This document shows positions 5,177 to 14,687 of a DNA stretch of 47,269 nucleotides, piece by piece. The position numbers and the translations under genes are program-made. The notes beneath the pieces were generated by a model. The model was not told the DNA's origin, did not search any database, and saw nothing but the letters and a program-made list of their open reading frames with translations. Location of the stretch: contig JBDLIA010000016.1 of assembly GCA_039715185.1 (NCBI GenBank), positions 1 to 47,269 of the forward strand, given 5' to 3'. Positions within the stretch are counted from its first letter, which is position 1. Each line of letters starts with the position of its first letter. The DNA comes from Gemmatimonadota bacterium (GTDB lineage Bacteria; Gemmatimonadota; Gemmatimonadetes; Longimicrobiales; RSA9).

Positions 5177-6832
5177 CTACTCCACCCGCCCCTCCACCTC
5201 CGCCACCACCAGACTCGACCCCGACGCCATCGACTGGTAATACCGTACGAACCTGTCGGTCTCGAACGCCGGGAAGTCGGCCAGGTTCAGCGCCCAGCGA
5301 TACGCGATCGGCTGGTAGCGTAGCGCGACGGCCACGTCCATCGGACCTGCGGCGCCGTCGATCGCCAGGTCGAAGCTGACGACGTCGGAGCCGCCGTGGA
5401 AATCCTGATCGGCCGCGGCGGCGCCCAGCACGGCCACGTCGGGGTGGGCGGTCACCGGCTCGAAGCCGCGCGGCAGCAGGCGGTTGTCCTTCAGGTAGGC
5501 GACGGCGTTGAGGAGCCCGGTCGTGGGACCGCCGCCGTCGCCGTGCTCCATGATGGCTTCGTAGATCTGGACTTGGTCGGCGCGCTCGATGGTGCGGTGG
5601 TGCCGCTCGTACCGGGTCGCGTCTTCGTCACTGTCGTTGCCCTCGATCGAGCCGTCGGGGCGGAAGCGGCCGGACTCGAAGAGGACGGCGCCGGCTTCAT
5701 CGGTCACCGTCACGTGCAGCCACGCCCTGCGCGACGGGTAGGCCGAGGGCAGCTTGTGGCCGGCCAGGTTCTCCACCGCTACGTCGAAACGCAGCCGGCC
5801 GCCGGATCGCTCCAGCGCGCGGATCTCGAGCCTCGCGGTGCGGGTCTGCAGGTGCTCGACGGTGCGCCGCGCCGCGGCCTCGAGCTCGGGCGAGGGGGCC
5901 TGGACGCCGAGCTCGTCGCGGTAGCGGTTGAGCATGCGCAGCATGAAGAAGTTGCCGCCGCGGAAGGCGTGGCGGTTCACCCCGGCGCGCGGCCTGCCGA
6001 GCACGCCGGTCACCGCAACCTCGCCCTCGACCTCTGGCATGTGGCAAGACTGGCAGCTCCGCTCGCCGGCGTAATCGCTGTGCAGCCACTCCTGGTAGGG
6101 CATCTGCTCGGGGAACTCGCCCGCCTCGTCGCCCGCGAGCGGGTGCGTGTGCAGGGTGTGGCAGGAGCCGCACAGCTCCGAGCTCTGGATGTGCGCCGAG
6201 CTGTCGGGCTGGAGGCCGGTGGCCGACGCCATGATTCGCCGGCGGCCGGCATCGACCCCGAACGGCCCGAAGACCGCGCCGCCCGGCGCCGCGCCGATCG
6301 TGAAGCCGCCCGAGAAGCTCGACGGGTCGCCCAGGCCCTCGGGGCTGATCTGGTGGCACACCGAGCAGGACACCCCATCGGCCGCGAGGATCGCCCGCGC
6401 GCCCGGGGCCGCACCCACCGGCAGGTTCTCGAATACCGAACCGGAGCCGCCCTCCGTATGCGCGCTGTAGCGCGCCATGGGCATGTGGCAAGTGGCGCAC
6501 TTGTCCTCGATCGCGGCGCGCGCGTCGGGGTGCTCCATGATCTCGCGGCGCACCGCCGCGTGCCAGTACGGGTCGCGCGCCGAGTTGGCCATCATCGACG
6601 CGCGCCAGTCCGAGCCGATCGACACGTCCTCGCCGGCCGGGCCAACCACGCGGTTGTGGCAGGCGATACAGGCGTCGGAGGTGCGGAACAGCGGGCCGTT
6701 GGCGTGCGCGGCGGCTTGGGTCGCCGCGGGGTCGGCGGGCGCGGCGTCCCCCGGGGCCCTGGCCACGCCCGCGGGGGCGCACGACGCGGCGAGCCACGCG
6801 GCGAGTAAGGCAACGGCCGTCCTACCACCCAT
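5177..6832 (-). CDS. Pentaheme c-type cytochrome lipoprotein
   Basis: 551 residues with a lipoprotein signal ending AASC (Cys18) and five CxxCH haem sites: CIACH (55), CATCH (112), CSVCH (156), CGSCH (221) and CQSCH (260). The C-terminal ~270 residues contain no haem motif and look beta-rich, possibly a docking domain. It is probably an exported electron carrier. The start overlaps the stop of the upstream cytochrome/beta-barrel gene by 11 bp, so the two are translationally coupled and likely work together. A remnant of a paralogue lies at 312-416. Confidence 0.88.
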   Translation of the reverse strand: MGGRTAVALLAAWLAASCAPAGVARAPGDAAPADPAATQAAAHANGPLFRTSDACIACHNRVVGPAGEDVSIGSDWRASMMANSARDPYWHAAVRREIMEHPDARAAIEDKCATCHMPMARYSAHTEGGSGSVFENLPVGAAPGARAILAADGVSCSVCHQISPEGLGDPSSFSGGFTIGAAPGGAVFGPFGVDAGRRRIMASATGLQPDSSAHIQSSELCGSCHTLHTHPLAGDEAGEFPEQMPYQEWLHSDYAGERSCQSCHMPEVEGEVAVTGVLGRPRAGVNRHAFRGGNFFMLRMLNRYRDELGVQAPSPELEAAARRTVEHLQTRTARLEIRALERSGGRLRFDVAVENLAGHKLPSAYPSRRAWLHVTVTDEAGAVLFESGRFRPDGSIEGNDSDEDATRYERHHRTIERADQVQIYEAIMEHGDGGGPTTGLLNAVAYLKDNRLLPRGFEPVTAHPDVAVLGAAAADQDFHGGSDVVSFDLAIDGAAGPMDVAVALRYQPIAYRWALNLADFPAFETDRFVRYYQSMASGSSLVVAEVEGRVE

Positions 6833-8066
6833 CGAAGAACCCTCCGTCGAACCAGTCCCAGAGCACGTATACCAGGAGCTGCGTGCTCCTGGTGTCCGAG
6901 TCGGTCAGCGGGATGCGGACGCCGGCGTTCGCCATAACGTGCTGGCGCGTGTTCAGCGTGACCTGCACTTGCGGCACCAGGTCCCAGTCGGTCGAGCCGC
7001 CGCCTTCCAGCTCGCGGCCCGCGAGCACCTCGAGCATGGGCGACCAGGCGCGGCCCCAGCGCCCCTCCCGGAAGGTGCGACCGAGCACCAGCCGCAAAGC
7101 GCCCTCGTTGTCGGCTGCGTCCTGGTCGAAGGGCAGCTCGACGAGACCCTGCGCCTGCAGGAAGACGTCGTTCCTGAAGATCTGCCCGTAGGCCAGGAAC
7201 GACTCGAAGACCGTGGTGCCGGTGCCGAAGCCGTCGTCCTCATCGCCCGTGGGCAGCTTGATCTCGCCGGCGACGCTCACGATCGACCGGCGCTCGAAGG
7301 AGTGGAAGACGTCGCGCTTGAGGCCGATCACGATGTCCTCGATGCCGCCCACCCAGTCGCGCGAGATCTCGGTGCCGTCGCCGGCCAGCACCGCCCGCTC
7401 CTGGAAGCCGAACGGGACCACCACCTCGACCTGGTTGCGGGAGCCGAAGCGTCGCTCGTAGACGAACTCGTGGCTGACAGCCTGCGGGTCATCGACCGAA
7501 ACGCCGACGGTGTAGACCGCCTCGTCTTCCGGATACGCTTTCTCGGTCACGAGCGCGCGCGGCAGGTTCAGCTCGCCGCGCGGCCAGTCGGCGTCCCCGC
7601 AAAAGCCCCGGATGTATTGGACGATGCGCCTGATCTCGGCCTCCGTCAGGGCGTCGCCGAAGGCCGGCATCATGGGGTCGAAGCCGCGCGTCGGGCCGCC
7701 CTCGTGGCCGACCGCGACCCAGTCGGCGTCGGGCTCCCGCGAGGCGAAGGCGCACTCGCTGAAGTCGGGCAGCGCGATGTCGAAGCCAACGTCCGCGGCC
7801 GAGGCGCCCGTGCCGTCCGCGCCGTGGCAGGCGGCGCACGCGGCGCGGTAGAGGGCTTCGCCCGACATGTCGGCGTAGGCGGCCTGGGCGGCTGCGGGGT
7901 TCTCCTGGGCGGCGGCCGGGGCGGGTAGCGCGATCGCGAGGGCGAGACCGGAGAGCGTGGTGACAGCCGCGAGCGCGAGCGCTCGGACGGTGGCGGGCAC
8001 GGTGGCCGTGGGAGGCGCGGCGAGAAGAGCGGGCGCCGGCGTCGGAAGGGGGAGGGGACGGGACAT
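6822..8066 (-). CDS. Cytochrome c domain fused to an outer-membrane beta-barrel
   Basis: 414 residues. The ATG at 8066 is preferred because it gives a signal peptide (to about AAAQ, residue 54); the frame upstream runs into a pseudogene remnant. Residues ~65-145 are a monohaem cytochrome c (AACAACHGADGTG, Cys77-His81, candidate Met ligand in PMMPAFGDALT). Residues ~150-414 alternate like an outer-membrane barrel and end in aromatic residues (WFDGGFFDGW). This would place a haem at the mouth of a porin-like barrel. The 11-bp overlap with the pentaheme gene suggests a trans-outer-membrane electron conduit, which is inference. Confidence 0.8.
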   Translation of the reverse strand: MSRPLPLPTPAPALLAAPPTATVPATVRALALAAVTTLSGLALAIALPAPAAAQENPAAAQAAYADMSGEALYRAACAACHGADGTGASAADVGFDIALPDFSECAFASREPDADWVAVGHEGGPTRGFDPMMPAFGDALTEAEIRRIVQYIRGFCGDADWPRGELNLPRALVTEKAYPEDEAVYTVGVSVDDPQAVSHEFVYERRFGSRNQVEVVVPFGFQERAVLAGDGTEISRDWVGGIEDIVIGLKRDVFHSFERRSIVSVAGEIKLPTGDEDDGFGTGTTVFESFLAYGQIFRNDVFLQAQGLVELPFDQDAADNEGALRLVLGRTFREGRWGRAWSPMLEVLAGRELEGGGSTDWDLVPQVQVTLNTRQHVMANAGVRIPLTDSDTRSTQLLVYVLWDWFDGGFFDGW

Positions 8067-8208: not shown

Positions 8209-8261
8209 GCCCTCCATGGGCATCGATGCGGCGTAGCCACGCCTCCACCTCAACTCGATGC

Positions 8262-11224: not shown

Positions 11225-13138
11225 TCAGATCTTCGGCACGATGCGCAGCTCCGGAACGGGTTCGGGGGCCCCGCTGTGGAAGACGGGATCGCCGTCGGCG
11301 AGCAACTCGAGTCTCATGAGCTCCTCGGTGAGACGCTCCGCGCGTTCGCGCATGGCGCTCTCCCACCGGTAGCTGTCCGGTGGGTCGGCGTCGCCGCGGC
11401 GGATCATGTCGGGATACGACAGGCGGCCGGCGGAACCGCCGGTGTAGCGGCTCCGCATGCGGCGCAGGATGTCTTCGAGCACAGCCATCGTGGATCGGTA
11501 ACGGACCCAGCGGTGGTTGTCCCAGGTGAGGTTGCTACCGTCGCCATCGGGCCCGTAGCGCCGCGCCAGCTTCCCGGCGGCGTGCCGCCCGCGCTCCGCG
11601 AGCTTTTTGATCAAGTCGACGGGCATGTCCAGGTTCAGCCCGCCTTCGTCGGTCTCGAGGAACACGTGCACGACGCGGTCGCGGTAGCCCGGGACTTTGA
11701 GCTGGCCGTTGTCCACCCAGTTCTGCATCGCGCCGCCGATCGCCCCCACGAAGCCGAGGAACGAGCGCAGCCCCCCTTTCGCATCGAAGCGGTACCACCA
11801 GTCGTCAGCGCCGCCGTGGATGTCGGGGATCACCCAGCTGTTCTCTTCCTCCTCCTCCGAGCGCGGCCGGTCCACGTGAAAGGGCCGCAGGTTGATCGCG
11901 AAGGTGGGCCGTCCGGGGAGCGGGGAGTCGAAGAAGTGCACCGGGAAGTTCGAGCTGATACCGCCGTCGGAGAACCACGCGCGCTCCGGCACCCCGGCGT
12001 TCTCACCATCGCGCATCTTGTCGACCGCCCACAGCGGCACCGCGCTGACGAGCAGCGGGAAGCTGAGCGACAGGCGCGCGCCGACCACGACCGGAAGGTC
12101 CGCGGCCTGCGGCACGGTGCGCAGGTCGGCCGGCACGCCGCCTGGTCCGGTGGGCCCGACCCGCGGCTTCGAGTGGTCGACCATCCACCGTACCACGTAC
12201 TCCGGAAAGAGCCTGCGGAACTCGTCGGGATCGAAGAACAGCTCCTCGCCGTCGAAGGGGACACGGTAGGGGCGCCCATGGGTCAGGCTCGTGGTCATCA
12301 AGCGCAGGTCGATGCCGTGGTCGGGGTCCGGCTCTGGGCCGCGCCAGAGGTCGCCGAAGGTGAGCGGCTGCCCGGGCTGCTGCCCGGCGAGCCGGTCCAG
12401 CAAGGACGACAGCCAGGGCGTCAGCGCCGCGGCGTCGGTCCGCCCGTTGGCCAGCCCGAGGCACATGCCGTAGTAGTTGGCGGGCAGCGTCCGCCCCATC
12501 CGGCTCGCAAGCGCGACCGCGACGCAGAGCCCCGCTCCGGCACACGCGACGACCAGGCCCACCACCGTGAACGCTGCCGCCACCCAGCCGTCCGCCGCCC
12601 ACAGCGCCAGCGCCACCAGACCGGCCCCCGGTAGCGCACCGACCAGAGCGGACACCGGGAAGCTCCTCCCTGCCGCGAGCAGGAACCGCAGCGCCCGCCC
12701 ATACCAACTGCCGCGGCCGGCGGCCGCGACCAGCGCGCGGAACAGCGGCTCCGTGGACCTCTGCGGCTGGAACAGCGCGAACAGGTTGGAGCGGCCCCGG
12801 GTGGGGGACGCCGCCCCGCACCACTCGGGCAACGCGGCGAGTTCGGGAAACCCAGGCGTCCCGCGGCTGCGTCCCAATTCCGCCGCGGCGGCGGCCGCCG
12901 CGGCGACCGCGCCCGCCGACGTACCGCCGATGCTCCGGAACCGGTAGTCCCGCGCGACCTCGCACACGCCACGCGGATAGACCACTCCGCTGGTGATGCC
13001 GCCCTTCATGACGATGTCACACTGGAGCTTCGGATCGTCATAGGTGGCGGAATCCCGCAGGGGGTCGGCGGACTCCTGTGCGCCGGCGCTCCGCGTCCGT
13101 CCCTGTTGCCGTCGATGCTGTGCCTGAACGGTGACCAT
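11225..13138 (-). CDS. Membrane-inserted patatin-like phospholipase
   Basis: About 637 residues. The ATG at 13138 has a purine-rich site upstream and avoids overlap with the previous gene; the frame can extend to 13183. The oxyanion-hole motif (VMKGGITSGVVYPRGV), nucleophile GGTSAG (Ser ~74) and SDGG (Asp ~391) make a complete Ser-Asp dyad. Between them lie two or three hydrophobic segments (~160-215), so the enzyme is tied to the membrane it would attack. MKGGITSGVVYP resembles patatin-like proteins annotated as RpoH suppressors. It lies 28 bp after the coiled-coil membrane gene on the same strand. Confidence 0.85.
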   Translation of the reverse strand: MVTVQAQHRRQQGRTRSAGAQESADPLRDSATYDDPKLQCDIVMKGGITSGVVYPRGVCEVARDYRFRSIGGTSAGAVAAAAAAAAELGRSRGTPGFPELAALPEWCGAASPTRGRSNLFALFQPQRSTEPLFRALVAAAGRGSWYGRALRFLLAAGRSFPVSALVGALPGAGLVALALWAADGWVAAAFTVVGLVVACAGAGLCVAVALASRMGRTLPANYYGMCLGLANGRTDAAALTPWLSSLLDRLAGQQPGQPLTFGDLWRGPEPDPDHGIDLRLMTTSLTHGRPYRVPFDGEELFFDPDEFRRLFPEYVVRWMVDHSKPRVGPTGPGGVPADLRTVPQAADLPVVVGARLSLSFPLLVSAVPLWAVDKMRDGENAGVPERAWFSDGGISSNFPVHFFDSPLPGRPTFAINLRPFHVDRPRSEEEEENSWVIPDIHGGADDWWYRFDAKGGLRSFLGFVGAIGGAMQNWVDNGQLKVPGYRDRVVHVFLETDEGGLNLDMPVDLIKKLAERGRHAAGKLARRYGPDGDGSNLTWDNHRWVRYRSTMAVLEDILRRMRSRYTGGSAGRLSYPDMIRRGDADPPDSYRWESAMRERAERLTEELMRLELLADGDPVFHSGAPEPVPELRIVPKI

Positions 13139-13166
13139 GATGGCCCTTTCTCTCGAGAGGTTGGCG

Positions 13167-14687
13167 TCAGGGCTGCACGACATCCGCCCGGAAGATCATC
13201 ACCGCCTGCGGCTCGCCCGGACGGAGCGTCACCGGGCGACTGCCGGCGGAGGCCCTGACGACGTGCCGGACCCCCGTCGGGAGCCAGTGCAGGCCCATCC
13301 TTGCCCCGGCAGCCGGTTGAGCGCCCCCACCGGAGATGGTGTAATCGCCGTTGGTGGAGACCAGCAGGAGCTCCCGACCGTCCTGCCTCGCGAGCACCTC
13401 GCGGAGCGCGCCGTTCAGCCGCTCGTTGAGGTCGTTGAGGCGGGCGATACCACGCTCGTTGACCGCCACCGAGCTCCGCAGCTCCTCGAGCACTGGACCG
13501 AACCGGTCCTCGACCAGTTGTGCCTGGCGCGCGGACTCTCGCCTCAGCGCCTCGACCTCCCGCTCGAGACCGGCTACCCGCTCGCTCTGGCTCGCGAGCT
13601 CGTTGAGCAACCCTTCGAATTCGTTGAGGTGATCTGCGACCAGGTCTTCGTGCGCGCTCAACTTCGTGCCCACAAACCCCAGCGAATCCGCCGTAATCAC
13701 GAGGCGAGACTGCGCCGCTGAAAGCCCACTTTCCGTCGTCCGCAGCCGCGTCCCGAGCCCCGCCAGCAGCACCCCGACGGAATCGACGTCCCCGATTCCG
13801 TCGAAGGCTCGCAGCGGCCGATGCAGCGCGTGTTGGTAGTCGACGGCGACGCGGATCGCCTCCGCCAGGACCGTATCCGGCTCCGCGGGCGCCTCGTGGC
13901 GAAGTGCGCCCAGCGCGCTGTCGGCGACGAGCTCCTCGTCCACCATGCCACTCGACGCCAGGATGAGCGCCAACGCGATGCCCATCATGGCGACACGGCG
14001 GAGCGTCTCCTCGTAGATGACAGGCGCGTCCGGAGAAGCACGCAGGCTCTTGAAGCGGCCCCGGGCGAGCCAACCCAGATACGCCAGAATCATGACCAGC
14101 GACGCGATGAGGAGTCCGCGCAGGAGGGCCCGTTCAACGCGCGTGGACCTTGTTACGTCATCGACGATCACGCCCAACACGCGACGCACCTCGCCCGCGC
14201 GCCCCGCTTCGAGGAACGGCTTCAGGACCGCCGCGGCGCTCACCCGCGTCGATGTCTGGGCTTCCCCGCGGAGCAGGCCGTTGATCCGCGCGGCCCTGTC
14301 CGCGAATCCCCCCAACTCCCCCGCCACCGGCGCCGCCCCGAGCGGCAACATGCGCCCGACTTCTCCCTCCGGAATGTCGCTGACATCGTAGGCGAGCACC
14401 TGGTCGACGATGTCGCCCTTGACGGCGATGGTGAGGGTGAGCACCGCGGTGGTCACGAACGCGAGCAGGTACTCGGGCAGAAACGCCATGAGGTGAGCCC
14501 GCGTGGGCAGGAAGACACGGTGGTAGCGGACGGTCGCACGCAAGCGGACGACCCACAAGACCGACATCACGAGGGCGTAGATGAGCGCGGCGCCCACGAT
14601 CGCGAGGGCGCACACCGTGATGATGAAGTAGATCAGCTCCAGGGGGGTCGTTTGTTGGGCGAGCAGCCGTTGCAATGATCCGTACAT
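13167..14687 (-). CDS. Membrane protein with long coiled coil, partner of the patatin
   Basis: 506 residues. Two N-terminal membrane helices (LIYFIITVCALAIVGAALIY, YLLAFVTTAVLTLTIAV), two more near residues 195 and 235, then a coiled coil from ~320 to 455 (LASQSERVAGLEREVEALRR). A small C-terminal beta-rich domain follows. GGAGGG precedes the ATG. No family recognised. The 28-bp spacing from the patatin gene argues for one transcript and perhaps one complex. The 235 bp upstream show no further gene. Confidence 0.75.
   Translation of the reverse strand: MYGSLQRLLAQQTTPLELIYFIITVCALAIVGAALIYALVMSVLWVVRLRATVRYHRVFLPTRAHLMAFLPEYLLAFVTTAVLTLTIAVKGDIVDQVLAYDVSDIPEGEVGRMLPLGAAPVAGELGGFADRAARINGLLRGEAQTSTRVSAAAVLKPFLEAGRAGEVRRVLGVIVDDVTRSTRVERALLRGLLIASLVMILAYLGWLARGRFKSLRASPDAPVIYEETLRRVAMMGIALALILASSGMVDEELVADSALGALRHEAPAEPDTVLAEAIRVAVDYQHALHRPLRAFDGIGDVDSVGVLLAGLGTRLRTTESGLSAAQSRLVITADSLGFVGTKLSAHEDLVADHLNEFEGLLNELASQSERVAGLEREVEALRRESARQAQLVEDRFGPVLEELRSSVAVNERGIARLNDLNERLNGALREVLARQDGRELLLVSTNGDYTISGGGAQPAAGARMGLHWLPTGVRHVVRASAGSRPVTLRPGEPQAVMIFRADVVQP

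Follow-up and report, generated by a model that had tools for sequence, protein, structure and literature searches.

Can a cytochrome c that is fused to an outer-membrane barrel, and whose gene overlaps that of a pentaheme cytochrome, move electrons across the outer membrane, and by which path? The question is raised by two neighbouring genes in a 47,269-nucleotide stretch of a Gemmatimonadota contig (the window; Table 1). The original prediction had joined a CxxCH cytochrome domain to a barrel-like C-terminus, and this architecture was borne out. CAACH, at residues 77-81, is the sole haem motif of the fusion, and structure prediction returned a barrel fold for the C-terminal part. The C-terminus of the protein reads LWDWFDGGFFDGW, and the tail that follows the barrel reads WDWFDGGFFDGW. 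The start of the gene is uncertain, since its frame stays open up to a GTG at 8240.

Table 1. Positions of the fusion gene, its domains and the adjoining pentaheme gene in the window.
Feature	Position	Strand	Details
Fusion gene	6822..8066	-	414 aa from the ATG at 8066; signal segment, class I cytochrome c, linker/putative plug, outer-membrane barrel (predicted) and tail
Cytochrome c domain (residues 67-153; ~61-153 in the model)	7608..7868	-	PF13442 4.5e-11, PF00034 3.5e-9
Linker/putative plug, conserved	fusion residues 156-181		between cytochrome domain and barrel
Barrel domain, COG4313/FapF-like fold (predicted)	6855..7523	-	fusion residues 182-404; DSSP and fold matches
Stop/start overlap, 11 bp	6822..6832	-	fusion stop 6822-6824, pentaheme start 6832
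Pentaheme cytochrome, PHC (ExtKL/c552) family, with C-terminal beta domain	5177..6832	-	551 aa

Scanning one genome per species yielded 52 loci. Of these, 51 are relatives, and L054, which matches the cytochrome domain only, was left out, as was L002 for the same reason. An assembly or frame artefact was ruled out by this renewed finding of the fusion in 51 loci. The fusion alignment contains 49 of the 51 loci and the window (50 rows), without L051, which has a broken frame, and L052, which is truncated at the start of its contig; rows L041 and L043 end just past the haem motif, which was confirmed in their DNA. Because the 49 aligned relatives recur at full length with 39-58% identity to the window fusion, the joining of the two domains is not due to chance. 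Met133 is invariant in all 50 alignment rows and is likely to be the distal haem ligand, which would give the fused cytochrome a His/Met haem. The Phenol_MetA_deg model (PF13557) matches the window fusion weakly, at 20.1 bits and below the curated cut-off of 22, and is matched by 29 of the 50 fusion members at E <= 0.001.

The relatives carry at least eight phylum labels, taken from the tree and from record titles: Acidobacteriota, Gemmatimonadota, Myxococcota ('Deltaproteobacteria'), Latescibacterota, Pseudomonadota, Balneolota, Rhodothermota and Planctomycetota. The window fusion clusters with three Gemmatimonadota rows (support 96/90), so that a host from this phylum is probable, and the Aminicenantes label falls in no tree group. 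The labels require 14 changes on the tree against a minimum possible of 7, which would fit some transfer but is not proof of it, since the bins are impure. No plasmid copy of the fusion was matched in a plasmid search; a pattern search of viral contigs gave ten matches, none related to the fusion, and Foldseek against viral proteins returned generic porin-like matches only. One named strain, Rhodohalobacter sulfatireducens WB101, has both the fusion and the pentaheme gene (locus L014). In a Rhodothermales bin (L051:5962-7083) the fusion gene lies in two open stretches beside an intact pentaheme gene, and the genome of L047 (G308) holds a divergent extra fusion copy, L116:3062-4300, with no multihaem gene adjoining.

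The AlphaFold2 model of the fusion, haem-free and based on 50 sequences, has a mean pLDDT of 83.2 and a pTM of 0.78. It shows a helical cytochrome at residues 61-153 and, by DSSP, 13 strand segments at 182-404; a barrel whose two termini both face the periplasm should have an even number of strands. Residues 151-180 are modelled confidently (block pLDDT 89-93). The best PDB match of the barrel is FapF (5o65_A; Z 21.6, 2.9 Å over 224 aligned residues), accompanied by the COG4313 channel Pput2725 (4rl8_A; Z 21.1, 3.1 Å over 218 aligned residues), and the next-ranked matches are KdgM and NanC. Residue 173 of the fusion model aligns with residue 2 of 4rl8, where the pre-barrel match starts. Based on the model, the fusion barrel is predicted to be closest to 12-stranded channels that, unlike the fusion, have no haem domain.

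Pput2725 is described as a 12-stranded barrel with its N-terminus inside, occluding the lumen almost fully; it conducted very small solutes only, and its lumen is given as ~10-12 Å even without the N-terminal plug (PMC4493636). The cytochrome domain of Cyc2 alone was modelled at ~20 x 20 x 10 Å (PMC8406198). The fusion barrel looks too narrow for a haem wire, and with such a lumen electrons are probably not passed along haems within the barrel. This bears on the original prediction of a compact electron route across the outer membrane, taken here as a direct haem wire through the barrel as in the MtrAB and PCC conduits. The joint conservation of a barrel and a multihaem protein speaks for such a wire, but the fusion holds a single haem, its barrel is nearest to 12-stranded channels with too narrow a lumen (Pput2725; PMC4493636), the barrels of MtrAB are reported to have 26 strands (PMC8406198), and MtrB/PioB (PF11854) had no match in the window's genome. 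We consider conduction along haems through the barrel highly improbable, and it was rejected on barrel size. MtrAB, MtoAB, PioAB and the Geobacter PCC/Ext conduits do resemble the present locus in that they pair a barrel of the outer membrane with a multihaem cytochrome; their barrel, however, is separate and far larger, with the haem chain inside it, whereas the present barrel is narrow and fused to a one-haem domain.

If the barrel does not house a wire, it could serve as a tether alone, holding the cytochrome at the outer membrane with no passage of solutes, so that the fusion and the pentaheme protein would form a periplasmic redox couple. Such a role would agree with the near occlusion of a closest channel fold by its own N-terminal segment (PMC4493636). 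However, the pre-barrel residues G164, N167, T174, K176, E180 and E182 and the charged residues R206, E214, D244, R325, R339 and E346 in or near the barrel strands are invariant in 50/50 rows. So many invariant charges in the barrel and ahead of it are more than an anchor alone requires, and we regard this explanation as unlikely.

The pairing of the two genes extends far beyond the window. The pentaheme gene lies directly downstream of the fusion in 48 of the 50 testable loci (the 51 relatives minus L013, where the contig ends), the exceptions being L007 and L034, and the predicted 11-bp overlap, present in the window, is repeated in 18 of the 48 other loci when the nearest start codon is taken. 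In a sample of 298 genomes of the window's phylum (fusion E <= 1e-30, pentaheme E <= 1e-60), the fusion was found in 55 genomes, with 39 strong matches (E at most 9.7e-119) and 16 weak ones (2.5e-60 to 4.7e-43). In all 35 genomes with the pentaheme gene, a strong fusion shares its contig and strand, the matched parts being 32-287 bp apart, and none of the 298 has the pentaheme gene without the fusion. The distance matrices of the two proteins correlate with r 0.91 over 47 pairs, against 0.25 for the best of 1000 permutations. The co-occurrence elsewhere on which the original prediction depended is therefore present in both surveys.

The dependence does not run both ways. The pentaheme gene is absent at E <= 1e-60 from the 16 genomes with weak fusions, and none was found nearby in the 11 flanks of these fusions that were searched; since these 16 genomes have divergent fusions without it, the pentaheme partner is not obligatory. 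The divergent fusions of L085-L095 (E 1e-43 to 1e-60) come from one taxonomic family of the same class and make up a separate, stand-alone subfamily with one CxxCH apiece, except in L095, which is cut by the contig end. Cross-locus clustering and a list of a single frame on each side of every locus revealed no widely shared third gene; the recurring neighbours of the pair form groups of at most about 12 loci. This test is rough, since many of the frames listed in GC-rich loci are shadow frames. Elsewhere in the window, a 652-aa open frame at 11225-13183 on the minus strand resembles a patatin-like phospholipase by eye.

The pentaheme protein itself points to a known group. The window protein has five CxxCH motifs (CIACH, CATCH, CSVCH, CGSCH and CQSCH), as have all 48 partner proteins, which form with it a second alignment of 49 rows that includes L051 and L052. 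Its AlphaFold model (mean pLDDT 85.7, pTM 0.86) matches Thermochromatium tepidum cytochrome c552 (5ze8) with Z 26.0 and 2.8 Å over 351 aligned residues at 22% identity (Foldseek 4.1e-16). Based on predicted fold and haem count, it is a member of the PHC group, in which a study of cable bacteria ties together ExtKL, c552 and the archaeal nanowire AvECN (PMC11976967). It shares five haems and the fold with ExtKL, c552, MccSep and the cable-bacteria sPHC; unlike these, it always adjoins a fusion in this sample. The ExtKL model (NF040886) is matched by 41 of the 49 pentaheme members at E <= 0.001, and the window protein scores 33.7 bits, below the equivalog cut-off of 250. Of the predicted 'five-haem lipoprotein' the five haems stand, but the lipoprotein label is doubtful, because the Cys after the signal segment (LAASC) fits a lenient lipobox only, the strict lipobox is found in 0/49 family members, and 34 of the 49 have no Cys before haem 1.

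Outside the CxxCH motifs, the possible ligands M81, M201, H214 and H288 are invariant (49/49), and H359 and H411 nearly so (48/49). In the alignment with MccSep, the motif N-L-A-G-H-K-L-P-S-A-Y-P falls on the selenocysteine site; the pentaheme and MccSep share AGH-x-x-P. Tyr365 stands opposite MccSep X325, a residue taken as selenocysteine from the mutant name U325A, and at this position the window pentaheme differs from MccSep in having no selenocysteine. The near-invariant Tyr365 lies inside a conserved AGHKLPxxYPSRR motif (window 5723-5770, residues 355-370), a site that may be functional.

In four of the 39 strong-fusion genomes (G046, G055, G119 and G259) the pentaheme gene is missing, and its position in these, as in locus L007, is taken by a putative copper protein. 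This protein has an invariant H150 and C188-x2-H191-x2-M194 (L105 numbering). The C-x2-H-x2-M site is predicted to be an amicyanin-like type-1 copper pattern, an assignment based on the motif and on a marginal PDB match to amicyanin (E 0.034). At L105 the frame of the copper-like protein begins within the end of the fusion gene, as does the pentaheme frame elsewhere. The proteins of the four genomes are the top four matches to the copper-like family in the phylum, where it occurs in 97 of the 298 genomes at E <= 1e-25. A paralogue is also encoded in the genome of the window (G000:C27:25537-26175; L117:4891-5772), directly before COX2, COX1 and COX3 readings, of which COX1 was identified by PF00115 (2.7e-153) and COX2 and COX3 were named by eye; on the other side of this paralogue lie cytochrome c-like genes. 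At L034 (4145-5269, a Gemmatimonadota contig), a GMC oxidoreductase gene lies directly 3' of the fusion, in the usual place of the pentaheme gene.

In which direction, then, would electrons move? The relation to ExtKL, together with its link to metal and selenite reduction, would mean outward flow. The pentaheme protein would then act in the periplasm as an ExtKL-like reductase or carrier, and a small oxidised substrate (a metal, a selenite-like oxyanion, or a nitrogen or sulfur species) would be let in by the barrel and receive electrons from the fused cytochrome. In addition to the ExtKL and c552 matches, extHIJKL is reported to contribute to Fe(III)/Mn(IV) reduction (PMC6148476), and loss of the porin ExtI is reported to lower selenite and tellurite reduction (PMC5877670). 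However, a class I cytochrome with His/Met ligation points to a carrier of high potential, the pentaheme protein scores below the ExtKL cut-off, and the copper-like protein that replaces it in four genomes has a paralogue in an oxidase cluster. Outward reduction is possible but doubtful.

We tentatively put forward, at somewhat less than an even chance, that the two genes encode a self-contained outer-membrane redox module. In this scheme the fusion would lie in the outer membrane, its narrow COG4313/FapF-like barrel fitted with an N-terminal plug and its monohaem His/Met cytochrome c kept on the periplasmic side, at the channel mouth. From outside the cell, a small redox-active solute, such as a dissolved metal ion or a phenolic or quinone-like small molecule, would reach or enter the channel and trade electrons with the fused haem. 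The haem would in turn trade electrons with a second, exported protein: in most cases the pentaheme PHC cytochrome, in some lineages the type-1-copper-like protein that has a paralogue among the haem-copper oxidase genes of the window's genome. We favour this mechanism because of the invariant charges, the exclusive pairing and the replacement of the pentaheme by a copper-like protein with a relative in an oxidase cluster. The fusion, its conservation as a family, its inheritance along with the pentaheme gene, the predicted folds and the replacement of the partner come from the data; the orientation, the plug, the access of the solute, the contact with the partner, the direction and the substrate are inferred. 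The gene pair probably serves electron exchange with an extracellular partner, and we lean slightly towards inward flow, to the respiratory chain.

The original prediction also held that known conduits use separate barrel and cytochrome proteins. This does not hold, because Cyc2 and Cyc572 are described as fused cytochrome-porins (PMC8406198, PMC10654088), and the kind of protein is therefore already known. Like the window fusion, the Fe(II) oxidase Cyc2 carries a single CxxCH cytochrome ahead of a barrel of the outer membrane, occurs in many phyla, and is reported to have a copper protein in its pathway, rusticyanin in Acidithiobacillus (PMC10654088). Its motif AXPXFAR[QK][TY] upstream of CXXCH, as given in PMC8406198, was found in 0/50 fusion rows, and its PXL motif shortly downstream of CXXCH in none of the 48 CxxCH-containing rows. 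Moreover, Cyc2 is 16-stranded, whereas the barrel of the window fusion is predicted to be smaller (13 segments, COG4313/FapF fold), and the window fusion differs in having a full class I cytochrome domain of ~90 aa and a pentaheme partner in an overlapping gene. Membership of Cyc2 was ruled out by the absence of the motifs and by predicted strand count. Cyc572 of Leptospirillum is likewise a predicted cytochrome-porin fusion, but it is predicted to have 16 strands and to be PorB-like (PMC10654088); we set it apart by this description, not by sequence.

Our best reading is a module that is Cyc2-like yet unrelated to Cyc2. Searches of openly licensed papers led to work on Cyc2, Cyc572, ExtKL and COG4313 but to no description of this fusion or of the gene pair, which is weak evidence of absence. 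We see about an even chance that it is a third, independently built cytochrome-porin fusion beside Cyc2 and Cyc572: a widespread and undescribed outer-membrane redox module whose haem, placed at the opening of a narrow and plugged channel, would exchange electrons with external solutes and pass them, through an interchangeable pentaheme or copper protein partner, to or from respiration. If this is true, there would be a candidate electron route across the outer membrane for Acidobacteriota, Gemmatimonadota, Latescibacterota and further groups that are largely uncultured, one that is missed by searches for Cyc2 motifs and for MtrB barrels. The strict pairing, together with the exchange of pentaheme and copper-like proteins at one gene position, makes contact between the fusion and its partner testable.
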